Shown here: positions 26,282 through 42,201 of the stretch, piece by piece
How positions within the stretch are numbered: position 1 is the first letter of the stretch
Layout: every line of letters begins with the position of its first letter
Source of the DNA: Pseudomonadota bacterium
GTDB lineage: Bacteria; Desulfobacterota; Desulfobulbia; Desulfobulbales; SURF-16
NCBI GenBank assembly: GCA_018816555.1
Contig: JAHIVT010000105.1
Location: 1-42,786, forward strand
Direction: 5' to 3'
DNA length: 42,786 bases
Program-made: the position numbers and the translations under genes
The notes under the pieces: generated by a model
The model's input: only the letters and a program-made list of their open reading frames with translations
Database searches by the model: none
Told to the model about the DNA's origin: nothing

Positions 26282-27679
26282 CTATTCGATGACTTCCCAA
26301 TGCCCGCCCTTGGCAGGACCGACCCGGCGGACGACCCCACTGGCTTGGAGCTTCTGAATATTCCGTTCCACAGACCTTTCGGTCACACCTATTTTTTCTG
26401 CGAGTTCTGGGATGGTGATCAAGGAATTCTTTCTCATGAATTCGATTATTTTCCCCGACGTTTCCCCCGACGTTTTCCCCGACGTTTTCGGTGCAACACC
26501 GATCAATTCCATCTGACCTACCGGTTTGCGGTGTACCGTGGCGGCAAACAGGCACCCATCCCGATCATCGGTAAAATCAATATGCGGCCATTCATCCAGA
26601 GCGCGTTTAATTCCTGAGCCGAGGCCATGATAAGGCAGCAGACCCTTGGCAACATACGAAACCAGAATGGGGTTGCGGATATTGGAGTTGCCGGCCAGTA
26701 TCTTCTCCACCGTCAAGTTGTTTGGCAGATGGCCTGGGCTGATAATCTCGATGCGGTTGTCGAAGATAAACAGACGAATCGGTGCGCTCACCAGATAATC
26801 CCGGTGTACCAGGGCATTGACCAGCAGCTCTTCGAATACGCTTTCCGGGATCTCCGGAAGTCCCGGGGCATTCACCCCGCGCCCGGCCTGCACCTTGTGC
26901 AGATTGCGCATGACAAAGGCCAGGGCATCATCGAATATTTTTCGTAGCGGACCGACGAAATCCTCGGTGTCCACATAGTCGCTGACATGAATCTTGTTGC
27001 CGGGATAGCGGATCGCCTTCACCACAAACTGCGGTTTGATCCACTCCGGCCGCTCGGCAAACAAAAGGACCCCCGCCAGATTCAGCACCCCTGAGTCCGT
27101 GGCCAGATTCATATTCTGCAGCAGCCTGGTCAGCTCTTCCGGGGAATCGGGATATTCCTGCTTATAGACATCGCGCAGAAAATCACGGAAACGCAGCTTA
27201 TCCAACTTGTCAATTCCAGCCTTCGTCGGCAATTCGTCGGCATGGAACTGATCGGTAAGCTGGAACAGCCGGCGCAGTTCCTCCTTGGAGTTCACCCGCC
27301 GTTTATCCGCACCGGTCTTCAGCCAGATCACCCCGTTCTTGTCGAAATATGGCTTATCGATCCCCTTGGGAACGATCAGTACAATGACGATGCGCTTATT
27401 TTCAAGAACCACATTCTCTGTCTGGACTGCCAGAGGACTGCGCACCAGGTGACTTGCCGCATTGCTGATGAGCTGGTTGATCCGGCTCACATCCTTGCTG
27501 CCCAGTCCAGGAACGGAACCGTCATCAGCCACACCGATAAACAGCGTTCCACCCTCGGAATTGGCAAAGGCAACCATTTCCGAGGCCAAAGATTCCGCAT
27601 TGCGAACATCGGACTTGAATTGGCGGGAACTGTCTTCGCCGCTGGCAATTTGTTCAAGAAATTTTTCTATGGAAATCAT
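26282..27679 (-). CDS. AlbA_2/RecG-C-type ATP-binding regulator
   Basis: 465 aa from ATG 27679; a GTG at 27787 is an in-frame alternative. N-terminal AlbA_2 (Schlafen-like) domain with the motif EDSSRQFKSD then ASEMVAFANSEGGTLFIGVADDG (residues about 12-60). The centre and C-terminus carry the RecG-C/HATPase_c_4-like segment EELLVNALVHRDYL...IEIISPGHLPNNLT...GLGSGIKRAL. A short TSGK repeat linker and a C-terminal winged helix (LITIPELAEKIGVTERSVERNIQKLQASGVV) follow. Such proteins are mostly transcriptional regulators near defence loci. It lies about 135 nt downstream of brxL. Confidence 0.85.
   Translation of the reverse strand: MISIEKFLEQIASGEDSSRQFKSDVRNAESLASEMVAFANSEGGTLFIGVADDGSVPGLGSKDVSRINQLISNAASHLVRSPLAVQTENVVLENKRIVIVLIVPKGIDKPYFDKNGVIWLKTGADKRRVNSKEELRRLFQLTDQFHADELPTKAGIDKLDKLRFRDFLRDVYKQEYPDSPEELTRLLQNMNLATDSGVLNLAGVLLFAERPEWIKPQFVVKAIRYPGNKIHVSDYVDTEDFVGPLRKIFDDALAFVMRNLHKVQAGRGVNAPGLPEIPESVFEELLVNALVHRDYLVSAPIRLFIFDNRIEIISPGHLPNNLTVEKILAGNSNIRNPILVSYVAKGLLPYHGLGSGIKRALDEWPHIDFTDDRDGCLFAATVHRKPVGQMELIGVAPKTSGKTSGETSGKIIEFMRKNSLITIPELAEKIGVTERSVERNIQKLQASGVVRRVGPAKGGHWEVIE
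26449..26484 (-). repeat. 12-bp tandem repeat coding TSGK/TSGE
   Basis: Three 12-bp units (26449-26460, 26461-26472, 26473-26484; TTTTCCCCGACG with one T-to-C change), plus a partial fourth. They encode TSGK-TSGE-TSGK in the linker between ATPase-like and winged-helix parts of the AlbA_2 protein. The unit keeps frame, so copy number can change linker length by slippage. Confidence 0.85.
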
Positions 27680-27813
27680 GATTTCATTTTCTGAGATTTT
27701 CGTCACAGTTGCAGGATGATGAAGCCCACCCCCGGCACATGAAAAATACATCCGTTCCGGGTTTCTGGGAGTTTCCGGAGTTTCCACCCGATGCGCTCAT
27801 GCCGAGTGGCTGA

Positions 27814-29226
27814 TCATCTGACCGTTATTTCAGCAACATTTTGCGAATATTCTGGATCCATTATAGCCATCTGGCGGCGAATATTAGATCGCAGTTCAAT
27901 GGCCGGCTTCAAACAGAACTCATGGAAATCATCTGCAGTAACTGTATTAATATCCGGGAATAGGAGTTTAAGGTAGCCACAAGCAAGTCGCTGTATTGCC
28001 CGCGTATCTCTCAAATCCCCGTCTGCAATCGTATGGTCTTTTACGAAAGCCATATGGTCCTGGCGCGACCGCAAGGAATACAACACTTCGCCAAAATAGT
28101 CGGCGCGAAGGGCGAAAGATTGGCAGATGGAAGAAGATTCGATCCTTGGCAACTCCCAGCCAGGGAGCAACCCATGGAACCTGTCGAGGAGCGCTGTCGC
28201 ACCATGTCCCTTGAGCCATCCGGGTAATTCCTTGAAAAAATTGACATGCTTTGGTAGCCCATCTTCAATGGGAATGTTTCCAAGAATTACAAACCCGGCA
28301 TCGGCGGAGCCATGAAAACCCATGACGCGAAATTCGCCTGACTCCAGATAGCCCTTGAGCGCACCGACTATCTCTTCTTCGTCTTTAAGCCGGATTGTTT
28401 GTATCTCATCAAGAACAATGGCATCATATCGTGAAATAATGCCGGTTTGCTGCTTGTTCATATCATAAAATAACTGAGGACGAGTAACAACGCCGCCGCT
28501 GATAAGCCAGGCGTGCCGTGATAGTTGACTGAATATATAGGATTTACCTGTTCCCTTCGGAGCGAGTTCAATAATATTAACCCGTGGTTCGACAAGAGGT
28601 ATCAATCGAGTCAGCAAAAGCATTTTTTGTCGAAGTGTATATTTCTCCTCAGCATATCCCATGCATCTTGTCAGAAGAACCTGCCATTCATCTAAGGTGA
28701 ACTCCTTTCGGCTCGCTAAAAAATACTCAAGGTCTATGCTAGCGGCCTGCATGGGCTTGAAAGCCGTCATAACAACTTCAAAAAGGTCCCCTTTGCCCTT
28801 TTGGGGCATCCACATGAGCGTTGCGCTCCCCCATACATTGCCATACAGCAAGAGGGGGTTTTCATCCACGATGGTTTCAAGCGCGCGACCGGTAATGTCA
28901 AGAGATGGTATCCGTAATTGCAAATCGCCTTTCGATGGATGTACCTTCACACTAAATGCATCTAAAATTTTTAGTTGATTTCCGGATCTCAGTTCATACA
29001 TCAATGACTCTTTCTGCTTCTTATCCGGCAAATAGCGAGCAATAAAATTTCTGATTCCATCGCCATCAACCCCGCCTTCGTTGGTGCGGTAACGGCTCAC
29101 CAACCAATCAAACACAAACGCAGGGATCATCCTGCCCGAAAGGCCGACGCTCGCTGCAATGCCTTTATGCACGCAAACATCAGGAAAAAATGTTTCAATT
29201 TTTGTGTCCAAATTTTGTTTTTCCAT
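27814..29226 (-). CDS. brxL: BrxL, Lon-like AAA+ BREX protein (short form)
   Basis: 470 aa from ATG 29226, one nt after the pglZ stop (TGAAATG). The N-terminal region (FFPDVCVHKGIAASVGLSGRMIPAFVFDWLVSRY) and AAA+ core identify BrxL. Walker A KGTGKS lies at 224-229, Walker B DAIVLDEIQ at 268-276 and a sensor Asn in LGNIPI near 317. It ends without the Lon S16 protease domain carried by the longer form of about 680 residues, matching the short BrxL class of about 470. Probably a DNA-binding AAA+ ring rather than a protease. Confidence 0.9.
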   Translation of the reverse strand: MEKQNLDTKIETFFPDVCVHKGIAASVGLSGRMIPAFVFDWLVSRYRTNEGGVDGDGIRNFIARYLPDKKQKESLMYELRSGNQLKILDAFSVKVHPSKGDLQLRIPSLDITGRALETIVDENPLLLYGNVWGSATLMWMPQKGKGDLFEVVMTAFKPMQAASIDLEYFLASRKEFTLDEWQVLLTRCMGYAEEKYTLRQKMLLLTRLIPLVEPRVNIIELAPKGTGKSYIFSQLSRHAWLISGGVVTRPQLFYDMNKQQTGIISRYDAIVLDEIQTIRLKDEEEIVGALKGYLESGEFRVMGFHGSADAGFVILGNIPIEDGLPKHVNFFKELPGWLKGHGATALLDRFHGLLPGWELPRIESSSICQSFALRADYFGEVLYSLRSRQDHMAFVKDHTIADGDLRDTRAIQRLACGYLKLLFPDINTVTADDFHEFCLKPAIELRSNIRRQMAIMDPEYSQNVAEITVR

Positions 29227-29227
29227 T

Positions 29228-31546
29228 TCAGAACTCAAAATCATCATCAAATTCATTCATCATAGCGCCCTTGGTTTCGATCTTTAGCCCGAGAGAAATT
29301 TTTTCTTTACCAAATCGATGCCTCATTGTGAGTACCCCTTGCAATTCAATCGCGGCTTCATTGATAGAAGTAGCATCGAAAGATGCATCGAGACTGTTAA
29401 CTTGATTCGGCTTAATTCGTAAGGGCAGCTGAGTGGATACTTCAATTCCATCCAGGGAAATATCTATTATGGATAATGGATAATTGTTGGGGTTGGAGAA
29501 CGCGACCTTTAGCCTGTTGTCTTTGCGTCTTCGGAATATTTCCCCTTCAACGGCAACAGTCGGTGGGATGGCTGGCTGAGGCTTTTGGAAAGAAAGCATG
29601 AACCAGGGCACAGCAACTTCTTGTGGAGTACAACCGCCATGGGTAGCGCCTTTTGGCTTTTTATCAAAACATCCATATCCCAACGGAATAGCCATTTCTT
29701 CATGAAGACCGAAAAGGCCAGGTTTCAAGCGCCAGATGGATTTTTCATCTGCTTGCTTTAAGGTATCGGGCTGTTCGATAACTGTGCTGCGGGCTTTTCG
29801 TCTCTTTGAATTTTGAACTTCCATCGTGCTAATATTCTGAGGTAATTCTGTATAGCCATGATCGCTGCAGACACCGATGCAAAGGTTTGCGCCGTATTGC
29901 TCTTTAACCACATGTGCGGCCTCAATAATCGCTTCAGCCTGTTTCCTGATGCGGGCAGTGTATTTTTCGCGACGTACGTAAGGGGCCAATGACGTATGGA
30001 GATATTCCCGGTCAAGCTGGTTGTCCAGATAAAGATAGACCCTGGCGGAATTCTGCATTAACTCGAAAAGTGTGCTGTCTTGATCGGTTGCCGACACCAC
30101 TTCCGTCTCGGATAGTCCAAAAGATTCCTGCAATAGCTTCCGATAAAAAGCGGCGTCTGGCCGCTCCGGTGGCAACTGGGAATTCATCCAACCACAGACC
30201 AGAGTAGGTTTTGCGATAAAAGTTTCTGTTGGCAGAAAAGCAAGGTAGGGCGCAATTCCGTTTTCCGGATAGGCACCTGCCTGCTCCAATATAGGAAGTA
30301 ATACATCCAGCCCGCCCAGATAATCCAGGCCGTCAAACACATAAAGCAGGATGGGGCCATCAGCAAGCCGTGTCTTTAATCCACTGATTTGACGATAGGC
30401 CATCCCCCTTCCATCGATCAAAAGATTTGCATAGTTCCTCATCAACCAATTTTCAAACTGCTCGACAAACGGTTCGGTTTTCTCTGTCAGTTTGAGCGTG
30501 GCGCAGGAGTCATAATAGGGAAGATACTCGTCTTGAAGCCACTCTTGGACTATTTCAATTGAAGCGGAATCCAACAGGAGGGAAGGCTCCTTGGCGGACA
30601 CTAGCCTTTGAGCCAAAGCAACGGCTTCCGGAAAGTCATCGAGCCTGGAAATTTTCTGATAAATATCCTGTTCGAGGGGAATGCCCTGGCGCAAGAGAGA
30701 TTGCAGTTTTGTCACAAGGAATATTCGTTCAGGTTCCAACCTACCGGAAAGAAAAGACAAGGCCTGAAGTGGTGACCGCCCCCACTCTTCATCGAGGAAG
30801 GCCTTCAGAAAAACGGCGGCGCCCTCCGGCAGCGGAATTCCAAGGCCGGGAAACGACCGATAGCTCTCCGGCAGCAAATGAAGCGCATTCCATTCAGCAA
30901 CGTGCTGGAACCAGCTCGCAACTGTGCTTGAAGGGTATTGGCGAAGTATTTGCTCCCAGGCCAAAACTCTGGCTCGTTGAAACGGCCCCTTGCCAAGCCA
31001 GCGGAAGAATTCCGCCCTTCCGGCATCACTCATGCCCCATGCACCCAATCGCTCCATCAGCAGTTGGCGAGTCAAGGGGTGAAGCTTTTTCTCGTCATGG
31101 ATTGCAAGCCACCGGAGGATATCCGACAAGGCTACATCCTCTACCGGATCCTCAGTCTGCCAGTAAGGACCAAGCAGAATGCGGCGCAGCCACGACTCAG
31201 CCGACTCGTGTGAGAAGATTTCCTCTTGCGCTGCCTTTTCGAGTAACTTCAGTTCGACAACCCATGCAGGATGATTTTTGAAAAGACGTTTAATATCGGA
31301 ACGATTAAGGCGTTGCTGAAGCTCAGCTACAGGATCAAGATGGATTAATGAAAGGGAAAATCTCCTTGCTGGTGCATCAAACCAATGAAAAATAGCCGGA
31401 TTTCTTACAACAATACAGCCAGAGTGCTGGTTTGCCGGGCTTTTCAGCATTTCATAGGCTTCCTCGTACTGTCGCTCATCCTCAACGAGATAGTCACCCG
31501 CCTGAAGTGGATGAAGCCCGAACTGATCGCAGATAATTTTTCTCAT
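29228..31546 (-). CDS. pglZ: PglZ, BREX alkaline-phosphatase-fold protein
   Basis: 772 aa. The C-terminal PglZ domain keeps the alkaline phosphatase superfamily motifs: LLYVFDGLDYLGG (metal Asp at 405), FLPTETF (Thr at 440), CSDHGYTELP (561-568) and ATHGGCTPQEVAVPWF (about residue 633). The N-terminal 390 residues are the family-specific helical part. PglZ is the hallmark of all BREX types and is needed for modification and exclusion. Its ATG shares one nt with the brxC stop (TGATG). Confidence 0.93.
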   Translation of the reverse strand: MRKIICDQFGLHPLQAGDYLVEDERQYEEAYEMLKSPANQHSGCIVVRNPAIFHWFDAPARRFSLSLIHLDPVAELQQRLNRSDIKRLFKNHPAWVVELKLLEKAAQEEIFSHESAESWLRRILLGPYWQTEDPVEDVALSDILRWLAIHDEKKLHPLTRQLLMERLGAWGMSDAGRAEFFRWLGKGPFQRARVLAWEQILRQYPSSTVASWFQHVAEWNALHLLPESYRSFPGLGIPLPEGAAVFLKAFLDEEWGRSPLQALSFLSGRLEPERIFLVTKLQSLLRQGIPLEQDIYQKISRLDDFPEAVALAQRLVSAKEPSLLLDSASIEIVQEWLQDEYLPYYDSCATLKLTEKTEPFVEQFENWLMRNYANLLIDGRGMAYRQISGLKTRLADGPILLYVFDGLDYLGGLDVLLPILEQAGAYPENGIAPYLAFLPTETFIAKPTLVCGWMNSQLPPERPDAAFYRKLLQESFGLSETEVVSATDQDSTLFELMQNSARVYLYLDNQLDREYLHTSLAPYVRREKYTARIRKQAEAIIEAAHVVKEQYGANLCIGVCSDHGYTELPQNISTMEVQNSKRRKARSTVIEQPDTLKQADEKSIWRLKPGLFGLHEEMAIPLGYGCFDKKPKGATHGGCTPQEVAVPWFMLSFQKPQPAIPPTVAVEGEIFRRRKDNRLKVAFSNPNNYPLSIIDISLDGIEVSTQLPLRIKPNQVNSLDASFDATSINEAAIELQGVLTMRHRFGKEKISLGLKIETKGAMMNEFDDDFEF

Positions 31547-34500
31547 CAGGAAGCCGTTTTGAAAAAATGCTTTCTAAGAAAACGATACAAGATCACCGTT
31601 TTCTCTTTTTCATCAAGACTTCTACCGATTTGTTCCACAGTGGTATTGAGCATGTTTTCCAATGCCTGCCCGTTGGGACTTAACTCTTCCACTACCTCAA
31701 AAATTCGCTTTTTGTTTTCTCCATCAGGAAAAACAATGGTCAAGCCGACATGATTGGGCCGGATAGGATCTTGATCAGATCCTGGTTTTGCGAAAGGCGC
31801 AGAAGGAGGCTCAAAGCTTTCAACATATTTTTTTGCGGAATCGAGCTTGGCGCTGAATTTGACCACCATATCATCCGCCCAGGAAGTGACAGACAGGCCG
31901 GTGAGTTTTTCGGCCAGGCGTATGAGTACATTTTCGTCAATTGCGTCCGCCTCGCGGCAGCAATCGACAAGCACGGCAGGGTCTCCATGATGCATGAAGT
32001 TTTTTGTTTCATCCGGCAAGGCATCGAACCATTTCTGAACCGCATCAACCCCATCAGCGCCACCTTCAAAATTCTTCAAACACTCCTCTATCACATTCTG
32101 TCGTAATTTCTCCGGTGCTATCTCGAATTCTAGTTTTATTTCGGAAAAACGTTTTTCAACGTCATTTTGCTTGACTTTATCTTTAACATCAAAAACACGT
32201 TCAAAGACATCACGTAGTAGTATTTTTTGTGTATCTGGCTCTAACTCGGCAAGTGGCCTGAAGATGTATTCTCTGACTGCATACGCCGCGATGGAAATTT
32301 GTACAGTCGTTTGGGCATGTTTGGCAAGGCCCCGCCACCACAGACCAATGGCCGTTCCAACTTTTTTCACTCGCTCAAGGGCTGGGTCGGAGGGCACGAG
32401 AGTTATACCGAAAACCTTGGCCATTCCATCAACCAACGCTTTCTGGTTAGAGCTGACATTGACATACACCAGCTTGAATTTATCAGGAGTAGCAAAGACC
32501 TTTTCCAGTGTATCACCTTCGATTGCTGTAATCATTTCCACTTGTTTTGCCGAGCGCTGGAACTCAAAGGAGATGTTTCCCAGGGCCAACTCGTGATGGG
32601 CGACAACGGCGAAAAAGATGGGCATTACCCTACACTTAAATCCATAAGGCGACTTCCGCAATTGTGCCACCAGCTTTTTTACCTCCAACGGCCTTTGCCG
32701 CGCCTTATTGAGAAACTCACCGATCTCGTTCCAAATTTGATGTGCGCCGGGATATTCATCCTTGCCAGGTTGAGAAATGACAATATCGCCGGCCTGATCT
32801 TTCCGCAGTATTCCATTGCTCTTTAAAAGGTGGGTAATGACATGTTGCGGGGCTGCCGCTGTTTCTTTCCAAAGTGTTTCTGCCGCATCATTACTTGCCA
32901 GTTTCAAAACGATGTCGCGGCATTCCTTCCGATAACCCCAATTGCCGCCAAAATCGTCCTGCGCCAGTTTCTGATCGCCGATTTTAGGGCAGTAAGGGAA
33001 AACTTCCTGCATGATCGTCGTCGCCAGTTTTTTCAATTGCCGGCTGTTTTGGACATCTTGCGCTTGCCCCTTCCAATAGTATTCAAGAGCTTGTTTCTCA
33101 GGTGTAACAATATCGCCGATGGCATCCGTGAGCTGAGTGTTTTTGTCTTGTTTCCACACCTGCCACTCTTCATGGAGTTCTCCTCCTTCGGCGTAGAGAC
33201 TCGCCTCATTTTTTTTCAGATATTCCAGCGCCTGGTGTTCCAAAAGCAGTCTGGCAATCTTCACTGGCTGTTTTGGGATGGCAAGGACAACCTGTTGATT
33301 CTGCTTTTCAGTCAGGGTTGTCTCGGCGATTCTCTTTGCTTCGTCGATTTCGCTTGATGTCTCGCACAAAAGCACGAACAGGAGCCCATCCGCGAAACTT
33401 CCATCCCCAAGATTTTTTGTCAGAATATGGAGCGATTCCCTTACCTGGTACATGCTGACAGGTTCTATCGTCAACTGTCTGTACACGCCAAAGTCATCGC
33501 CGTAACCGGTAGCTTCAACAAAACCAGCCACCGGCATATTCGGCCACAGAGATTTAAGGTAGGGGATGGATTTCTGACCGAGCTTTTCGGGTGTATCCTC
33601 GATAATTTTACGGACTTTCTCCATGAGAGTTTCAGTCGAACTGCTGACCGCCGGCCTGAATGTGCCGTCTGATTGCATGCGCATCAGAATATGATTCTCG
33701 TTTTTCAGGTCAGAATGTCGTGCCAGCTCCGAGAGATAATGTTCCCGGTCAACGCCGGCAATATCCAATGAATACAGAAGAATATCCTCTGTTATCTTAA
33801 ACCGGGTGGGGTTGAATACCCGAAATACAGACACGGCTTTCAGAGTTCGCATGCCAAAATCGTCATCCGGCCCAAGTCGAGACTTGAGTTGTTCAAAATC
33901 CCTGTAAATGGAATATGTCCGTTCTTGTTGCTTGATGTCCCGCGCAAAATAATCCCACAGTTTGTCAACGGTAAACATGGGTGGGGACGGCGCAGAACGG
34001 TCCATCAGCGCTTTGTCCAGAAATCGCCTGAAACTTCCGGGCTCATCCTCGCAAAGGCAGGTGAAAAGAGTTCTGTTATTTTGCGCAACCTTTTCAGAGA
34101 TCGCCGGTAGACTATAAACGGCCATGGGGTGAAGGGGATAGGCACCCATCACCACTGTCGCCTTCAATTCATCGCGGGTAAATCCTGTAAAATAATTCAA
34201 GCGGGCGGTATCGTGAACCAGGGCATCAAAATACCCCTCGAATGATTTTGTAAGCTCCTGCCAGCCGAGTGACTGTTCGTTCGCGACAATGACGCCATCG
34301 ATCAATTGGAAGGTTTCAACATCGGTGCTTTTGAGAATATACTGCTTAAAGCGGCCTTCTATTTTTCGCAGGTCATCCTCCAGATTCTGATGACTGAAAG
34401 ATGACGCACTCCTGGAAATATCATGGTATTCCTTTAATGACCGGTGGCAAAAAAGATAGAGGTGCAGCTGGTTCTCGGCGCTGTCATTGCAGCATTCAGC

Positions 34501-35328
34501 GAAATCCTGAAGAGCAAGTCCTTCCTTGCCGGTCGGATCCTTAACTACTTCTTCCATCTTTTGCCCAAACTCATCCCATAAAACCACGATACCGCTGTAA
34601 CCATGGTTTTTTCGTAATTCTTTGTTAACATCATTATAAAAAGTTGCCGGATCAATTCTGGCCGCATAATGAAACTGTGAACCACTGGTAGCGGCCGGGT
34701 AAACCTCCCGGAACAGATCAAAGGCATCCCTTTGATATTCGCGCAGCCGGGTTTTCAACTCCTCGATTGTCTTGCTCCGCTCCGCGACTTTATGTTTCAG
34801 AATATCGAAACTGGCAGGATATTTTCCCTCAAATTCTTCAATTCGTTTGATTGCGCTGTCAAAGGCGGTTGGCGGCAATATATTTTCAAGGTTTGCATTC
34901 ACCAACGCATGACGCAACCCCATCATCAGGCTGTCCCCGATATGCCCTACTTCATCCCCATAAAGGCTGACCGCCAGGTAGGGGCCTGGAACAAACTGGC
35001 GGTGCTGCTTCAAAACAGCTCTGGTGTCAGGGTCCAACTTTTCCGAAACTACCTGCAGTTCTGGGGTTTCCAGCGGCCGCAAAAAAAGATTAAGCAAAAC
35101 GAGAGCAAGATGGCTTTTCCCTGTCCCGTATGTACCCATGACGATTCTCGAGCGATAATTCGGGGTGGTCGGGTGCATTTTTTTGGCAAAATCAAGAATG
35201 ATCTCCCTCGCCACCTCTGTGGGGATATAACCCGCCACTTTGGACAAGTTGTCCCGCTCGTTTCGCAAATTGACGGCTGCTTTAAAGCCGGGAGAGATTC
35301 GAATGAACTCTTTGATGTCTTGTGTCAT
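31546..35328 (-). CDS. brxC: BrxC/PglY-like large P-loop ATPase
   Basis: 1260 aa from ATG 35328, chosen for GGAG six nt upstream; the open frame runs further 5' over the preceding gene. Walker A GTYGTGKSHLALVLL lies at residues 65-79 and Walker B GIVVLWDEF at 246-254. A very long helical C-terminal part with coiled-coil character follows. Size and position before pglZ fit BrxC. BrxC is an AAA-type ATPase that forms complexes with other BREX components on DNA. Confidence 0.87.
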   Translation of the reverse strand: MTQDIKEFIRISPGFKAAVNLRNERDNLSKVAGYIPTEVAREIILDFAKKMHPTTPNYRSRIVMGTYGTGKSHLALVLLNLFLRPLETPELQVVSEKLDPDTRAVLKQHRQFVPGPYLAVSLYGDEVGHIGDSLMMGLRHALVNANLENILPPTAFDSAIKRIEEFEGKYPASFDILKHKVAERSKTIEELKTRLREYQRDAFDLFREVYPAATSGSQFHYAARIDPATFYNDVNKELRKNHGYSGIVVLWDEFGQKMEEVVKDPTGKEGLALQDFAECCNDSAENQLHLYLFCHRSLKEYHDISRSASSFSHQNLEDDLRKIEGRFKQYILKSTDVETFQLIDGVIVANEQSLGWQELTKSFEGYFDALVHDTARLNYFTGFTRDELKATVVMGAYPLHPMAVYSLPAISEKVAQNNRTLFTCLCEDEPGSFRRFLDKALMDRSAPSPPMFTVDKLWDYFARDIKQQERTYSIYRDFEQLKSRLGPDDDFGMRTLKAVSVFRVFNPTRFKITEDILLYSLDIAGVDREHYLSELARHSDLKNENHILMRMQSDGTFRPAVSSSTETLMEKVRKIIEDTPEKLGQKSIPYLKSLWPNMPVAGFVEATGYGDDFGVYRQLTIEPVSMYQVRESLHILTKNLGDGSFADGLLFVLLCETSSEIDEAKRIAETTLTEKQNQQVVLAIPKQPVKIARLLLEHQALEYLKKNEASLYAEGGELHEEWQVWKQDKNTQLTDAIGDIVTPEKQALEYYWKGQAQDVQNSRQLKKLATTIMQEVFPYCPKIGDQKLAQDDFGGNWGYRKECRDIVLKLASNDAAETLWKETAAAPQHVITHLLKSNGILRKDQAGDIVISQPGKDEYPGAHQIWNEIGEFLNKARQRPLEVKKLVAQLRKSPYGFKCRVMPIFFAVVAHHELALGNISFEFQRSAKQVEMITAIEGDTLEKVFATPDKFKLVYVNVSSNQKALVDGMAKVFGITLVPSDPALERVKKVGTAIGLWWRGLAKHAQTTVQISIAAYAVREYIFRPLAELEPDTQKILLRDVFERVFDVKDKVKQNDVEKRFSEIKLEFEIAPEKLRQNVIEECLKNFEGGADGVDAVQKWFDALPDETKNFMHHGDPAVLVDCCREADAIDENVLIRLAEKLTGLSVTSWADDMVVKFSAKLDSAKKYVESFEPPSAPFAKPGSDQDPIRPNHVGLTIVFPDGENKKRIFEVVEELSPNGQALENMLNTTVEQIGRSLDEKEKTVILYRFLRKHFFKTAS

Positions 35329-35342
35329 TTGCCGCTCCGTTA

Positions 35343-35771
35343 TCAGGGGGTCCAAATAGTTCCACGGTTGTTTTCGCTGATTTCTTTGATCTCCGCCAGG
35401 TCTTCCTGGCAGTACAACAACAGCACGACTCCATGCGCAGTCTCCATTCGCAGCATGTACCGCAAAAAAGCATACCGTTCCTCTACCGACCATTTGCTGT
35501 AAAATGGCTCCAGGCTGGTAACCAGGAGAGGCTTTGCGGAACACCCCCCCCTGATCTCTTCCTGTATTTTCCGCCTGGTGAAAAACGATTCCAGTTCTCC
35601 TTGGTATCGTTTGTCAAAATCTGCTCGTTCAGCACCGATCACACTGGTTAACTCTTCAACCAGTTCGTCAGGAAAACGATCTTGCCTTGAGGGAGTGACA
35701 AGCATCACTCGGTAGCGGCCGTTTATACAGCGGTGCCATTTGTCGAGAAAGATATCGAGAAGTCTCATCAC
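35343..35771 (-). CDS. Small BREX-operon protein, possibly BrxF-like
   Basis: 142 aa between DUF4007 and brxC, 14 nt before the brxC start. The sequence alternates strands and helices in a P-loop-like order (RYRVMLVTPSRQD, then KPLLVTSLEPFYSKW, then AHGVVLLLYCQEDLAEI) but shows no Walker A Lys. In size and pattern it recalls BrxF, the small partner of BrxC in BREX type 3. That comparison is by shape only and remains uncertain. It may load or regulate the large ATPase. Confidence 0.7.
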   Translation of the reverse strand: MMRLLDIFLDKWHRCINGRYRVMLVTPSRQDRFPDELVEELTSVIGAERADFDKRYQGELESFFTRRKIQEEIRGGCSAKPLLVTSLEPFYSKWSVEERYAFLRYMLRMETAHGVVLLLYCQEDLAEIKEISENNRGTIWTP

Positions 35772-35787: not shown

Positions 35788-36690
35788 CTATTTGTCCTGG
35801 GACAGTTTTGTTTCTAATTCCCTGACCTCGGCCAAGCCGGCAGCCAGAGAATCCAAGGGTGCTTCACCATCAAGCTCGTGGTAGTGAGCGCTCACCAGCG
35901 CCAGTGGAGAGACATCCATAATCGAAACCGAGTTAAGCCCGGCAGTATGGCTTATCCATGCCACATGCTTTTCATACCGATCGCCTATCTCAACAATCAA
36001 TTTGTCAAGACCATGCCGGTCAAGCCTGAGAATCCTACCGACTCCCCAAGGATCCATAAGCTTCTCAAGATATACAGACTGACGTTTGTGTTGCCGTGCC
36101 CAGTCGAGCAGGGCATAAGCAGCAATGGCAGGAGGTGGTTCACGATAACCGACGGGCTGCCGGTGATAGCCACCGTTTTCGTGCGCGGTGAAAAATCCAA
36201 AATCATTACCCAGTCGGGTGCCATCAAAGACCTGTTTGAATGGGGAAAATATGAGCTTATCAAAAGTGCTGTCGGTCATCGGTTTTTCGTGATCCAGGTC
36301 CCACCATTCGCGCAGGTGTTTTTCCAGCATGCCCCGGTCAAATGAATCCTGAGAAAATTCATTGAAATAAACCGCGTAAAACCAGGCCGGGCTGTTTTGC
36401 CGGGCCAGTTTATAGTGAAGTGCCCACCAAATGCCGTCATCATCCATGTCCGGATCGTGCCTGCCAACAATACGGCCAAGGGGGGTGAGCGAAAACTGTT
36501 GCTTTTTCTTCTGAAGAATCCCGGCCGTCTCGGCCCAAACTCTTGCCGCCCCCACCTTCAATTTGCCGATTCGGAGGACAGTTTGCGCCTTTTCCACAGC
36601 GCTTGGCAAAAACAAATCAGGATGTTCTGAAATTTTCTTAATGATCAAACGAAACCAGGTTTCTTCGAAACCAAACTCAAATTTAGCCAT
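35788..36690 (-). CDS. DUF4007 family protein
   Basis: 300 aa. The DUF4007 pattern is recognisable: FGFEETWFRLIIKKI at the start, VLRIGKLKVGAARVWAETAGIL, FSLTPLGRIVG, then DDDGIWWALHYKLARQ and WFYAVYFNEF. The C-terminus includes YALLDWARQHKRQ and a winged-helix-like region. The family is known from neighbourhoods with PAPS-reductase-like genes of DNA phosphorothioation (Dnd) and BREX type 4; its activity is not established. Five nt separate it from brxP. Confidence 0.85.
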   Translation of the reverse strand: MAKFEFGFEETWFRLIIKKISEHPDLFLPSAVEKAQTVLRIGKLKVGAARVWAETAGILQKKKQQFSLTPLGRIVGRHDPDMDDDGIWWALHYKLARQNSPAWFYAVYFNEFSQDSFDRGMLEKHLREWWDLDHEKPMTDSTFDKLIFSPFKQVFDGTRLGNDFGFFTAHENGGYHRQPVGYREPPPAIAAYALLDWARQHKRQSVYLEKLMDPWGVGRILRLDRHGLDKLIVEIGDRYEKHVAWISHTAGLNSVSIMDVSPLALVSAHYHELDGEAPLDSLAAGLAEVRELETKLSQDK

Positions 36691-36695
36691 CTATT

Positions 36696-38285
36696 TTACT
36701 TACCTTTTTTTGTGAGTGATTCAACAGCGGGACACTTATGCATTACACAAGTCAAACAGCTAACACACACATTAAAATCAATACGAAAATCAGAATCTGC
36801 ATGTAAGGCATTTTGAGGACACCTTGCACCGCAAGCACCACAATAGATGCATGATTGCAATTTCTTTAACTGCTTCTCAACCCGTTGCTGGAAAAGACGC
36901 TTATTTTTCTTGAGCAGATAATTGACGCGAATAGCTTTATCCTCAAACCCGATTTCCACACTGGCCAACATTTCCTGTGTGATTTTATCGTGAATCAAAA
37001 AAGTTTCCGAACAACCATTGCTTTTAACCTGTGTTTGCGGTCCGAGCGGTCGTAAAAAATGTCGGACCTTTTTTATCTCACCACTTAATAGCTGGTATGA
37101 AATTGCGGTATCAGACAGAAGGCATGGCGCAGATTCAATAGCAGCCTTGTAGTGGTCAAGACCTCGACCACCTGCCCTAGCACGCCATCCTTTAGTAACA
37201 AAATCATCCGGGTTTGGATGATTCACCCGCATGGCATGTTGTTCCAAAAATAAAGTCCAACGATTATTTTGAGTTGCATACCAATAATGGACCATACGAT
37301 GGGACCATTCACTATTAAATGGACAAAAAAGGCATCCAACTCTCCTAAACCCTTTCTTGTAAGCTGGATTAAATTTGATGCCATGATATAGCAGGTATAC
37401 CCAAACAGCCAAATCTGACCACTCAATAATGGGGCTTGCTAAAATTTCATTTGCAATTTTATGTTTGTTGCTAATCCTTGAATATTTTGATCGGCGTGCA
37501 GACTCGGCCTTTCGGATGCCATCAAAAGTTAGTACCCCTTGGCCAGGGCTTATCCCGGTTATGAGTGTTGATAGAGGATTTGTTTTATGTGTTGAGCAGC
37601 ACCAACGGAGGATCCGGCTGGGCGGGCCGATCGACTCTGCGGTTTTATAGAAATCCAGGGCCGAACGGCTGGAGATAAAAGGCGTCAGAGGGTGTTCTTT
37701 CTGGAAGTTCTGGAGATATTTATAGGTGTCCGGCAGCTCTATGGTGGTATCGGCAAAAATATGAAGGATGTCGCTTCGGCCCAATGCATTCATCACCAGA
37801 TGTGAAATGACGGTAGAATCCTTGCCACCGGAAAAAGAGACGAGAATCGGGCGCCCGCTGAACCGTGTAACCGTTTCCCGGATAAAATTCTCAGCCTCAT
37901 ATTGGAGCTGTTCAACATACGCCCGGTTCGACTCGCGTAACTGGTCCAGGGTTTCTTTGCGGGTTCTTTTCGTGGGGAGATGAGGTGGCTTTATCTTGGT
38001 TATTGCAACATCCGCCGATGTGGCTGATAGTTTGAAGAAGGCTTTTCCCTGTGAATGATAGTTGTAATTAGCCGGGGTCACCCAGAGTTCGAACTCACGC
38101 AGCGATGCGTGCAGTTCCTCGTCAATATTATTTCGCAAATAATTTATTTCCGGACGAAAGACGGGCACCAAGGTTGCCGCTGAAATATTGCGCCCCTTCG
38201 CCCCACAGGCGCAGCACAGTTCGCCAAGCAAAGGAACCTGGCAGGAATCGCACCAGTAGGTTCTTGGTGTTGCCGGTTTGCTCAT
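36696..38285 (-). CDS. brxP: BrxP, PAPS-reductase-like ATP pyrophosphatase with zinc ribbon and ferredoxin domains
   Basis: 529 aa from the ATG at 38285 that overlaps the previous stop (ATGA). Three parts are visible. N-terminal zinc ribbon (Cys 12, 15, 24/25 and 27). Central adenylating domain with the PP-loop SGGKDS at 152-157, RWCCSTHK near 227-234 and GCLFC at 317-321. C-terminal double ferredoxin motif with Cys 479, 482, 485, 489 and 507, 510, 513, 518. This resembles DndC, which activates sulfur transfer to DNA. BrxP replaces the PglX methylase in BREX type 4, so sulfur-based DNA modification is the natural hypothesis. Confidence 0.9.
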   Translation of the reverse strand: MSKPATPRTYWCDSCQVPLLGELCCACGAKGRNISAATLVPVFRPEINYLRNNIDEELHASLREFELWVTPANYNYHSQGKAFFKLSATSADVAITKIKPPHLPTKRTRKETLDQLRESNRAYVEQLQYEAENFIRETVTRFSGRPILVSFSGGKDSTVISHLVMNALGRSDILHIFADTTIELPDTYKYLQNFQKEHPLTPFISSRSALDFYKTAESIGPPSRILRWCCSTHKTNPLSTLITGISPGQGVLTFDGIRKAESARRSKYSRISNKHKIANEILASPIIEWSDLAVWVYLLYHGIKFNPAYKKGFRRVGCLFCPFNSEWSHRMVHYWYATQNNRWTLFLEQHAMRVNHPNPDDFVTKGWRARAGGRGLDHYKAAIESAPCLLSDTAISYQLLSGEIKKVRHFLRPLGPQTQVKSNGCSETFLIHDKITQEMLASVEIGFEDKAIRVNYLLKKNKRLFQQRVEKQLKKLQSCIYCGACGARCPQNALHADSDFRIDFNVCVSCLTCVMHKCPAVESLTKKGK

Positions 38286-40804
38286 AGCGGAATTTTGCCC
38301 CAACTTTTCTTTTTTAATGTGATGGAAAGTGTGCTTTCGCTCGAAACATTCATTATTTCTTCTTCAGAGTCATCAGATAAACAGGGGGGTGGTTCTCCTG
38401 TTCTGGTATCCATCCCTATGCTGGTCTTTGAATAGTTCGAAGATGGCAGGATTATCGCGGTAAAATATTCATCGATCCCTTTTAAGAGAATGATCAACAG
38501 CAGACTGTGAACTGCTGCATTTGCCAATAACTCAACAAGGTCCTCATGGAGATAAAAGCTTGAATATTTTTGACTCCAAAGACCAGACGCTAAAAAACTT
38601 TCAAGAGGTCGTTTAATTGCTTTGTTCTTTATTTCATTGTCGCCCAGCTCGCCTATTCGACGCATAAGAACAGCCGCCGCCTCCACCAGTTCGCCTTTCT
38701 TTTGTCGGCCAAGATAAAAATTGAAAAACCTCTCTTTCAGAGTCGGCAGATAAAAGACGCCTTTTTCATCCATGCCGCGGATAAAGACAAGGGCGAGTAC
38801 AAGTTTATACGAGCAATTATTGTTGGTGGTGATAAATCGCGCAAGGTTCACCAAGGCGTCGGGCAACAGATCAATTAATCCAGATAACGACCGCTTCCGC
38901 CACCTCTCCGGCTGGTCATAAAAGCCCTCGCCGATGCTGACAAAACGATTGCTGCAGTTATGCAAGGCCGCCGAAATGTTCTGTTCGGAGTATTCTCCGG
39001 CAAGATGCTTGATAATCTCACTCCGCCGCATTGGCAGGTCATGAGCATTCAACAGATCTTCGATAGCAGTGGACACGGAACGATAGCCGCCAACGCCCCA
39101 TGCCTTCAGGCCATAGATGCCGCGCTGTACGATTTCAACAGTGTCATAGCGCATCATCGCGGCATGCACATTGTGGTCGGAAATTTCCCGGTACTTTATG
39201 TTCTCTTTTCTAATGGCAGCGCCAATTTCGCTGAAATGTATTGGCTTACCATGGTTTTCGAGGACATGAACGATAAGGTCCTCCAACCGTTCTCCATGGC
39301 GTATCAGCCAACGATCAGAGGGAAAAACTACATCATCATGAAAAATAAATTTACTATTGGCTGCTGATACAATTTGTTTGATAAACGCCTTATGAAACTT
39401 TTGAATTGAATTCCTATCACAATGGTCCTTGCAATATGTAAGTATTTTGTTCCCAACAACCTCAAAATGATATGAATCATGCTCGCTCAGGTCGAGATGA
39501 GATAGTAGCTCCAGCGGGTGGTGACAGGAAAGGCATGGAGTATCCACACTAAGCTGATCGGATGCTGAGGCGAACGTCATTCCCGTCTGCCATATAGCTA
39601 ATAATTGTCCCAATGCGGATGGATTTGGGGTATGGGTCCATTCGAATCGAGTCTGTAGCGCAACAGCTAATTCCACCAAACTGATAATTCCACCACCACC
39701 TATTATGATCTGCTCGATAATCTCCCAGAAATCAGACAAAAGATCACGATGGGCTTTTACCACCAGGAGTGAATTTGCTCTTTTAAGAATCTGTCGCACC
39801 CTCTCCCTTGTTATGCAAAACTGGCTTCCCAGTTGTTCGAGTGTCGGCATGGTGTCAGGGAAGTTCAACCTGCTGCATACTATTTCTTGATTCCTTTTGA
39901 TTTTCAGGCAATGCCGGACAAAACTGACGACCAGATTTTCATAACTGGAATAGTCAATGGCAGGTAGTAACCCACTGTCCGTTTGAGCGGTGTAAGACGC
40001 CAAAGGGAGGTCACCACTCACAACAAACGAACGGATGATATTCTGAACTTCTTTCAGGCATTTTCGTCCGAAATTCTTCTGAGTTAAAAGATTGCCTGAA
40101 GGGTAAACCATTACCTCGCCGATTGTTGTCAGGCCAAGTCCCTTCAATATCTTTGAAGCCCTCACGGAAAACACAAAGCCCGACAAACTGACGCTACCTT
40201 TAAACCCGGGATGCAAATCATTCCAGGAAAAATTGACTAGCTCCCCAGAATTAAAAATAGGTAAAAACATGAGATTTTCTTCCGATGGAGGAAACTTCAG
40301 AAGATCTTCGGCGTGCAGTAACCGATTCTGGATTTTTTGTTCATGAGTAGTCGTCCTACACCCCACGGCGATGATGCTCTCACGAAATTCGGCGAGCTCT
40401 ATGATGGTTTTTTGTCCACAATTTCTCAAATCACGAAGCGAGTTCACATTACACAATAAAAACTCATCGCATGAGGAAAAATTATTCAGAAGAACATTAG
40501 CGGCTCGTACCGACAGATCTGCTGTTGATAATAATTCTTGCCAGGTTGGCATATTTTTCTTCGGTGCATCTTGGTTGTCGTCCGTTTTTTTCTTATTCTC
40601 TCCAATAGATTCGACGCCATTTTCTCGACAGTCAGCGAGAAAGTTTATGGGGGGATAAGCAGAAGTGTACTTTGACGCTGAAAATATCTTTATGTCGATC
40701 TTCCCGGGAGGATGCCCCTTTTCCTGAATTAGGGTGCTTTTTTCACCCCTTACAAGAGCGGCTTTCTCCCGTTTTAAGATATTTTTCCTCTTCCGAAATT
40801 TCAT
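38282..40804 (-). CDS. RNAP alpha-CTD / sigma-4 / HARE-HTH multidomain protein, function unknown
   Basis: 840 aa from ATG 40804; an upstream TTG at 40813 is possible. Domains seen: alpha-CTD-like helix-hairpin-helix at about 92-145 (LSVRAANVLLNN...LRNCGQKTIIEL); a second at about 204-259 (FSVRASKILKGLGLTTIGE...NFGRKCLKEV); sigma region 4-like HTH at 321-347 (PTLEQLGSQFCITRERVRQI); Cys at 424, 427, 458, 462; and two HARE-type winged helices at about 501-569 and 577-633. A helical C-terminus follows. First gene of the operon, it overlaps brxP by 4 nt. It may read DNA or RNAP, or regulate the operon. I know no described function. Confidence 0.8.
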   Translation of the reverse strand: MKFRKRKNILKREKAALVRGEKSTLIQEKGHPPGKIDIKIFSASKYTSAYPPINFLADCRENGVESIGENKKKTDDNQDAPKKNMPTWQELLSTADLSVRAANVLLNNFSSCDEFLLCNVNSLRDLRNCGQKTIIELAEFRESIIAVGCRTTTHEQKIQNRLLHAEDLLKFPPSEENLMFLPIFNSGELVNFSWNDLHPGFKGSVSLSGFVFSVRASKILKGLGLTTIGEVMVYPSGNLLTQKNFGRKCLKEVQNIIRSFVVSGDLPLASYTAQTDSGLLPAIDYSSYENLVVSFVRHCLKIKRNQEIVCSRLNFPDTMPTLEQLGSQFCITRERVRQILKRANSLLVVKAHRDLLSDFWEIIEQIIIGGGGIISLVELAVALQTRFEWTHTPNPSALGQLLAIWQTGMTFASASDQLSVDTPCLSCHHPLELLSHLDLSEHDSYHFEVVGNKILTYCKDHCDRNSIQKFHKAFIKQIVSAANSKFIFHDDVVFPSDRWLIRHGERLEDLIVHVLENHGKPIHFSEIGAAIRKENIKYREISDHNVHAAMMRYDTVEIVQRGIYGLKAWGVGGYRSVSTAIEDLLNAHDLPMRRSEIIKHLAGEYSEQNISAALHNCSNRFVSIGEGFYDQPERWRKRSLSGLIDLLPDALVNLARFITTNNNCSYKLVLALVFIRGMDEKGVFYLPTLKERFFNFYLGRQKKGELVEAAAVLMRRIGELGDNEIKNKAIKRPLESFLASGLWSQKYSSFYLHEDLVELLANAAVHSLLLIILLKGIDEYFTAIILPSSNYSKTSIGMDTRTGEPPPCLSDDSEEEIMNVSSESTLSITLKKKSWGKIPL

Positions 40805-40962
40805 GCTACTCAATTACTCACTCTTGTTTTGAGGGTCTTGGTCTTACCGGTTTTCCTACGGCCTCGATTCTCGTATAAAAATTTTAATGGAACAAGACTC
40901 TGTCAAAAAAAATCGTTACGATTGTGCGGAAATAATACCATGCACCATAGGACAAATAGTGT
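40805..40962 (-). promoter_or_regulatory. Leader/promoter region of the BREX operon
   Basis: No gene. On the minus strand a TTGACA hexamer lies at 40901-40906. A TATACG hexamer at 40872-40877 follows at 23 bp, too far for a standard sigma-70 promoter, so the true promoter is unclear. An IS630-type element sits immediately upstream and reads in the same direction. Confidence 0.35.
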
Positions 40963-40980
40963 CCTAGTACATAGTATATG

Positions 40981-41680
40981 TTAAAGTTTCGGATAAAGTC
41001 GTTTTAGTTTTATTCGCGCATCGTCTGTTTTGAACTGCCAATCAACCTTAGTCTGGCGGTTATTTCGATCGGTGTTCCATGCCGCCACTTCAGCTCGCAT
41101 CTTCTCGATACAATCAATCCGGCCTGCAAGGCATTGCCGCTTCAATACACTGAGTTCAATCTCTGCTATGTTCAGCCAGCTCCCGTGTTTCGGGGTGTAG
41201 TGTATTTCAAGACGTTCCGCCAAGCTCCTGGCTTCTTCAGGTGGAAACGCCGCATATAGCGAGGCCGTGTCGTGGGTATTGAGGTTGTCCATGACCAAAA
41301 CTACTTTCTTGGCATCTGCATAACGCTCTTCAAGCATCTCTTTGATGAAATACGCCCAGTCAATCCGTGTCCGCTGGTCAGTAATTTTTACCTTGCGCTT
41401 TCCCCCAAGCGGTTCAACCTCAAGTAATATGCTTGCGACCCCATTGCGAACATATTCATCATCCATCAGAACAGGATGGCCAGGGGCTGCCGGAATAGGC
41501 TCATGCACCTCCCCGATTAACTGTACACTCGATTCATCCATGCACACAACCGGGAATTCTTGACTATACGGACGCGCATAAACTTCGAGTATATCTTCCA
41601 TCGCCGCTACAAAACTGGCGTTTTGATCCGGCGGTATCTTCCAGTATTTGCTTTGGTGAGGCTTAAGTTCATTTTTTTTA
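40981..41680 (-). CDS. IS630 transposase, OrfB (DDE catalytic part)
   Basis: Catalytic part in the -1 frame; an internal ATG at 41601 would give 206 aa, but expression by frameshift from OrfA at about 41672-41679 is likely. The DDE triad is intact: VVCMDESSVQL (Asp), VLVMDNLNTHD (Asp) and SWLNIAEIELSVL (Glu). With intact catalytic residues and inverted repeats the element may still be active. Confidence 0.88.
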
Positions 41681-42113
41681 AAGTGTTACATACCGTCATC
41701 GGAGAAACACTCGTTACCATCTTCAGCTCGACCATTTTCTCAGCCAACAGACGGACTGTCCATCGATTTTTACCTTCTGGAGCATCCGAACATGCCAAGG
41801 CCAAAAGATGTGCTTCAAATTCTCCTCCGAATTGAATTTCTCGCGGAGGGGTCTCTCGCTCCTTACGTTCAAGGGCGGCAGAAAGACCTTCTTCTACAAA
41901 TCGTTTCTTTAAGTGCTCTAAACTTCGAGTCGTTGTCCCTAAAGCTTCTGCGACTTGAGCGACAACCCACTTCGGTCCATGTTCCCCAGCATCAAGCAGA
42001 AGTAATGCTCGAGCATATAAAACGGTGCGGGCTGCCCTTCTCCCCTTGGTTGAGATCGCCTCCAAGTCTTCCCTTTCCTCTTTTGCTAATGTCACTCTGT
42101 ATCGTGGCGCCAT
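41607..42113 (-). CDS. IS630 transposase, OrfA (N-terminal HTH)
   Basis: 168 aa in its own frame. It carries the IS630 tandem HTH region (ARALLLLDAGEHGPKWVVAQVAEALGTTTRSLEHLKKRF, then a RWTVRLLAEKMVEL helix-turn-helix). After NTLKK it runs into out-of-frame sequence. At the A8 run (plus-strand T run 41672-41679) a -1 shift gives NTLKKNELKPHQSKYWKIPPD, joining it to OrfB as in full-length IS630 transposases. Confidence 0.85.
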   Translation of the reverse strand: MAPRYRVTLAKEEREDLEAISTKGRRAARTVLYARALLLLDAGEHGPKWVVAQVAEALGTTTRSLEHLKKRFVEEGLSAALERKERETPPREIQFGGEFEAHLLALACSDAPEGKNRWTVRLLAEKMVELKMVTSVSPMTVCNTLKKMNLSLTKANTGRYRRIKTPVL

Positions 42114-42201
42114 GTCGTCGTCCTCCTTGTGTTTTGAAGACGACTATAACAAATATCACACAAAAATACGAATGTTTAAATTTTACGTTGTACTAGGTCC
42201 T

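Follow-up and report, generated by a model that had tools for sequence, protein, structure and literature searches.

REG, a protein of RNA polymerase-like DNA-binding modules, heads a divergent BREX operon that it may recruit to DNA

The closest described counterpart of the protein considered here is PglW of type 2 bacteriophage exclusion (BREX), which carries the C-terminal domain of an RNA polymerase (RNAP) alpha subunit (alpha-CTD) followed by three winged helices (PMC12839542). The closest described operon is that of type 4 BREX. We analyzed a window of 42,786 nt (contig JAHIVT010000105.1, assembly GCA_018816555.1) from a bacterium of the Desulfobacterota, in which a minus-strand gene that we label REG (38282-40813) stands first in a defence operon. 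This operon shares BrxP, DUF4007, SspC/BrxC, PglZ and BrxL with type 4 BREX, but differs from the canonical loci in its extra first gene and in a 141-aa open reading frame (ORF). Its BrxP has 529-535 aa where the canonical protein has 777-823, its SspC is ∼21% identical to canonical SspC, and its PglZ scores below the type 4 cut-off, the best model being NF033445 (31.5 bits against a cut-off of 140). The original prediction, in which the operon was called type 4 BREX, therefore holds for the core genes, but the locus belongs to a divergent, REG-bearing lineage; canonical loci lack REG, and one relative has a methyltransferase in place of BrxP. We give about an even chance to the view that REG is the DNA-recognition or recruitment subunit of this mostly phosphorothioate (PT)-writing lineage.

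Like PglW, REG is a large BREX-associated protein in which an alpha-CTD is followed by helix-turn-helix (HTH) or winged HTH (wHTH) modules, and positions 809-987 of the PglW models NF033442 and PDLC02512 match REG residues 212-389 collinearly (2e-6 and 9.5e-7). Because of this match and the domain content of PglW, REG is not a new category, and the earlier remark that no described BREX component of this architecture was known needs correcting. The likeness is limited, with a score of 26.9 bits against a cut-off of 990. Unlike PglW, REG has no match to a NERD nuclease or Ser/Thr kinase in Pfam and defence libraries, and it has a Cys cluster, a HARE domain and a different C-terminal domain. The PglW-like proteins taken for comparison of the C-terminus are without the alpha-CTD part, so the evidence for the link comes from the library models and from PMC12839542. 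Further afield, MzaA of the MZA system matches only the segment of REG that resembles region 4 of primary sigma factors (sigma4; residues 306-365, 9.7e-6). RNAP delta and sigma4-HARE proteins of Saccharibacteria follow the order sigma4-wHTH-HARE-wHTH over REG 306-604 at ∼25% identity, but the latter are ∼350 aa long and lack the alpha-CTDs, the Cys cluster and the C-terminal domain. The available portions of published BREX text contain no REG-like protein, although the family may have been mentioned earlier.

The assignment of the alpha-CTD and sigma4 modules is firm. On REG of the window, Pfam finds RNA_pol_A_CTD (PF03118) in two stretches (3.8e-13, gathering score passed) and Sigma70_r4 at 3.5e-5 (23.7 against a cut-off of 24.1). 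Both assignments are strengthened by the homologues (2e-19 and 4e-26 for alpha-CTD, 1.6e-11 for sigma4) and by a nine-sequence REG profile, which matches structures of RNAP alpha-CTD and of SigA/RpoD region 4 at 1e-9 to 1e-11. In an AlphaFold2 (AF2) model of REG (pLDDT 65.6 on average, mostly 70-93 within the folded domains), residues 203-264 match alpha-CTD (Z 8.1, 1.5 Å) and residues 287-363 match sigma4 (Z 7.8). A Foldseek search with the whole model gave no significant match (best E 9.7e-3), so that the structural matches are at the level of domains. The two alpha-CTD-like modules and the sigma4 HTH had been proposed from the sequence, and both proposals are borne out; structure prediction did not return folds unlike alpha-CTD, sigma4 and HARE. 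Since sigma-70 regions 2 and 3 are not matched by Pfam, other library or profile searches, which find region 4 alone, REG is not a sigma factor.

The residues expected to touch DNA are retained. R103, N106 and G133 of REG align with R265, N268 and G296 of Escherichia coli alpha, R218 and G249 are invariant in the second alpha-CTD, and the arginine and glycine aligned with DNA-contacting residues of alpha are kept in both modules. In the sigma4 recognition helix, E337, R340 and Q341 are invariant in all nine REG sequences. So are the four cysteines of the predicted Cys cluster, which is a probable Zn site. HARE-HTH (PF05066) stays below the gathering score on REG of the window (0.0054, 17.5 against 25.9 bits) and just under it in homologues (2.1e-5, 24.8-25.3 bits), but residues 499-573 of the AF2 model match the HARE domain of RNAP delta (2m4k; Z 9.0, 2.4 Å, 74 residues). 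Two HARE domains had been expected at residues 501-633. The first is upheld by this match, whereas the second (577-640) has its best match in an Rpa2 wHTH (Z 9.0) and, as modelled, is closer to the Rpa2 type than to HARE.

The operon context of REG is conserved. The gene order, where readable, is REG, BrxP, DUF4007, a BrxF-like ORF, SspC/BrxC, PglZ and BrxL. BrxP directly follows REG in each of the six loci that have readable sequence downstream (the window, L008, L011, L013, L015 and L094), and the REG stop overlaps the BrxP start by 4 nt as ATGA, which agrees with the first-gene position and overlap originally described and supports the suggested coupling of REG to BrxP. DUF4007, SspC/BrxC and PglZ come next in the five loci that read further (all but L094), and BrxL follows PglZ where a locus reaches so far. 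The family is small, with close relatives in L011, L012, L008/L014, L013, L015, L016, L094 and L095 and a fragment in L106; L012 is apparently the same contig as L105, and L016 the same as L009. Homologues thus do not lie mostly away from BrxP and PglZ genes, the sole exception being the decaying orphan L095, which has no BrxP downstream. REG–BrxP loci occur in genomes labelled as Desulfobacterota-type families and Omnitrophota. Among 258 genomes of the order, all three with this PglZ also carry REG, and they are among seven that have the REG gene or a piece of it. No close homologues were found in the viral contigs and plasmids searched. REG is the most divergent large gene of the operon relative to the window (60% identity in L011, 39% in L015), its values lying well below those of BrxP (74% and 62%) and BrxL; PglZ (79% and 43%) is second in L015.

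The basic C-terminal tail of REG is 47-67% identical to that of the window, whereas the linker before it is only 12-35% identical, and the tail is gone from the orphan. The N-terminus varies: one homologue carries an Lcl_C domain there (G001, 5e-32), and that of L094 has an extra alpha-CTD-like stretch and a weak HNH_repeat-like stretch. A diversity-generating retroelement was considered for the Lcl_C N-terminus and rejected, as the G001 assembly has no second (template) copy. The 1820-aa REG of L015 (L015:8279-13738) has five C-terminal wHTH units, four of them extra tandem copies, the upstream copies being partly degenerate. The variable N-terminus, the conserved tail and the C-terminal domain had all been overlooked, as had the 141-aa ORF.

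More distant relatives head other operons. On the Abditibacteriota plasmid pIAD-21 (L156, AP024153.1:85000-102890), a 568-aa REG-like protein annotated rpoD matches over the sigma4 and HARE region (profile E 1.9e-22), ends after the second winged helix and lacks the C-terminal domain. It is followed by an Eco57I/PglX-like methyltransferase, DUF4007, a P-loop protein, an SspC-like protein, PglZ and BrxL, a BREX-4-like core with an N6-adenine methyltransferase in place of BrxP. In this one case, the head protein persists through a change of self-mark enzyme, which is our main reason to assign REG a role in targeting or sensing and not one in the chemistry of sulfur. In G042, PbeA and PbeC genes are preceded by the gene of a 1131-aa REG-like protein, which covers alpha-CTD, sigma4 and the part after them; this first gene (L010:3538-6933) overlaps PbeA by 17 nt in an operon spanning L010:3538-11721. 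PbeABCD, a CxC-ABC ATPase system, has core machinery different from BREX, and its REG-like gene is not described in the available parts of PMC6459918 and PMC10853773. The ∼350-aa sigma4-HARE proteins (L017-L090), frequent in Saccharibacteria and present in other Patescibacteria, are possibly housekeeping RNAP-associated factors.

The C-terminal domain raises the question of whether REG reads the mark itself. Modelled separately, residues 576-788 reach a pLDDT of 85.5 and a pTM of 0.84. One possibility is that residues 651-787 are a PT reader related to the sulfur-binding domain (SBD) of ScoMcrA (fragment 91-260; PMC6224610), telling PT-marked self from phage DNA: the modelled domain matches ScoMcrA residues 94-239 (Z 8.8, 3.9 Å, 112 residues), the alignment sets K670 and P736 opposite two key pocket residues of the SBD (R/K117 and P165), the REG-like protein of the methyltransferase-type operon lacks the domain, and the orphan has lost the proline. 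However, the best structural match is an ORC2/Cdc6 wHTH (Z 10.2), and the SBD has itself been described as ORC-like (PMC6224610), so that fold similarity cannot tell the two apart and the likeness may be one of shared fold only. Homology to the SBD by sequence is not supported: hhalign of REG against eight SBD-HNH proteins did no better than windows of unrelated operon proteins (these being small alignments), and the domain has no sequence match in PDB or in Pfam, the Pfam library being one without the SBD accession PF26340. Sequence kinship is found with a domain of a superfamily 2 (SF2) helicase in G565 (E 5.8e-8; hhalign 94.7%) with no seen link to PT. We regard PT reading as unlikely; the earlier suggestion that REG reads modified DNA has structural hints in its favor and no sequence-profile support. 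The SF2 helicase at L148:1443-4637 carries the REG-C-terminal-like domain together with an S24 peptidase domain.

On balance, REG probably directs the defence machinery to DNA and does not itself write the mark. Recruitment is favored by its place before BrxP and the ATGA overlap, by its co-occurrence with the core operon, and by the REG-like proteins that head an operon even with a methyltransferase for BrxP and, in another case, PbeA–PbeC. It is also favored by the retained DNA-contact residues of the alpha-CTD and of the sigma4 recognition helix, by the divergence of REG and PglZ, by the expansion of the C-terminal unit in L015, and by a tail that is conserved where the linker is not and is missing from the orphan. 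The serial modules would grip duplex DNA, the two alpha-CTDs contacting the minor groove and backbone and sigma4 and the winged helices the major groove. What is recognized may be tuned by the variable N-terminus and by the C-terminal wHTH domain, which can be duplicated, and the basic tail may dock REG to a BREX core protein. DNA binding by the module array, with docking or sensing by tail and N-terminus, is the parsimonious reading. Recruitment of BREX to DNA is the best supported of the three functions originally suggested, whereas coupling to transcription is improbable. Several points weigh against recruitment. The six loci represent one small clade; canonical type 4 loci of the same phylum (L118 and L119) lack REG, which is therefore not part of a universal mechanism; and the REG core occurs outside BREX, in a Pbe operon and, in shorter form, in Saccharibacteria, so that it need not be defence-specific. 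An operon regulator would be an equally good fit for a first-gene product that is rich in HTH modules and keeps the DNA-binding residues of sigma4 and alpha-CTD intact.

Such a regulator is the main rival, and we consider it less probable than recruitment by a good measure. The alpha-CTD/sigma4/HARE array would sit on UP and -35 elements of its own operon as repressor or activator, until a ligand or a phage cue sensed through the N- or C-terminal domain relieved promoter occupation. The first-gene position, the invariant E337, R340 and Q341 and the origin of all parts in transcription proteins would suit this role, as would the T-tract and TTGACA seen on inspection upstream of REG, but a promoter scan found no site above chance. 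It would be unusual for a simple regulator to be so large and expandable (up to 1820 aa), to keep a conserved tail and to be translationally coupled, and REG is kept although the modification enzyme of the operon changes. A role in which REG contacts RNAP or active promoters and so links BREX defence to the transcription of DNA entering the cell is quite improbable. Two alpha-CTDs and then sigma4 on a single chain are reminiscent of the holoenzyme parts that recognize UP and -35 elements, and HARE resembles RNAP delta, but the other sigma regions are absent, and the conserved residues are those that contact DNA. A related idea, equally speculative, is that the order of these modules mimics the UP/-35 face of holoenzyme and aims BREX at strong phage promoters, while the C-terminal domain checks self DNA for phosphorothioate. 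If true, REG would serve as an immune receptor that senses promoter architecture and could be carried over from one modification chemistry to another.

Coordinates of REG, its parts and the neighboring genes are collected in the table below. The original prediction placed REG at 38282-40804, which corresponds to the ATG start at 40804. An IS630-type element with 32-nt inverted ends lies ∼150 bp upstream (40963-42197); truncation of the REG N-terminus by this element is unlikely because L012 shares part of the N-terminus. The small ORF between DUF4007 and SspC has 141-144 aa in the five loci that reach so far and is not recognized by Pfam, NCBIfam or PADLOC. A frameshift suspected in it was rejected: its reading frame is unbroken, and the longer of the SspC starts is an artefact. 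In L015, a DUF1016/YhcG PD-(D/E)XK nuclease (L015:16244-17350) is inserted between DUF4007 and this ORF. In the window, BrxL is immediately followed on its own strand by an AlbA_2/Schlafen-HTH gene (26282-27787, Pfam).

Table. Features of REG and its operon in the window (residues refer to REG)
Feature	Coordinates	Strand	Basis or remark
REG gene	38282..40813	minus	843 aa from TTG 40813; 840 aa from ATG 40804; defence operon gene 1
N-terminal region, residues 1-88, basic, predicted disordered	40550..40813	minus	varies among homologues
alpha-CTD-like module 1, residues 91-151	40361..40543	minus	Pfam PF03118
alpha-CTD module 2, residues 196-266	40016..40228	minus	Pfam; structure Z 8.1, 1.0-1.5 Å
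Primary-sigma region 4 HTH, residues 287-363, TRERVRQ	39725..39955	minus	Pfam, profile, structure
Helical/winged-helix-like segment, residues 364-425	39539..39724	minus	AF2 secondary structure only, fold predicted
Cys cluster CxxC...CxxxC, C427 C430 C461 C465	39419..39535	minus	invariant 9/9
HARE winged helix, RNAP-delta-like, residues 499-572	39098..39319	minus	PF05066 sub-threshold; structure match
Second winged helix, residues 577-640	38894..39085	minus	Rpa2 wHTH, Z 9.0, 1.6 Å
C-terminal extended wHTH domain, residues 651-787, SYK 668-670, P736	38453..38863	minus	AF2 model
Conserved basic C-terminal tail, residues 829-843, I-x-KKK-x-R-G-K-I-x-L	38285..38329	minus	alignment
BrxP/SspD-like PAPS-reductase family, predicted PT writer	36696..38285	minus	PADLOC BrxP 7.5e-87
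DUF4007/SspB-like (BrxA-like)	35788..36690	minus	library matches
141-aa ORF, BrxF/BrxB-like by appearance only	35343..35768	minus	same place in 5 loci
SspC/BrxC-like ATPase	31546..35328	minus	PADLOC SspC 6.1e-83; likely ATG start near 35328
PglZ, divergent, BREX-4-like	29228..31546	minus	library matches
BrxL	27814..29256	minus	TIGR02688 3.3e-123

With REG, a rare and poorly studied BREX lineage gains a hitherto undescribed first component. Several unrelated defence operons, namely those of BREX-2 PglW, the REG lineage, Pbe and MZA, have DNA-binding modules derived from RNAP, either in first place or further in. The retention of a related head protein while the self-mark changes from phosphorothioate to methyl is a natural experiment, in which targeting and marking could be separated by test.

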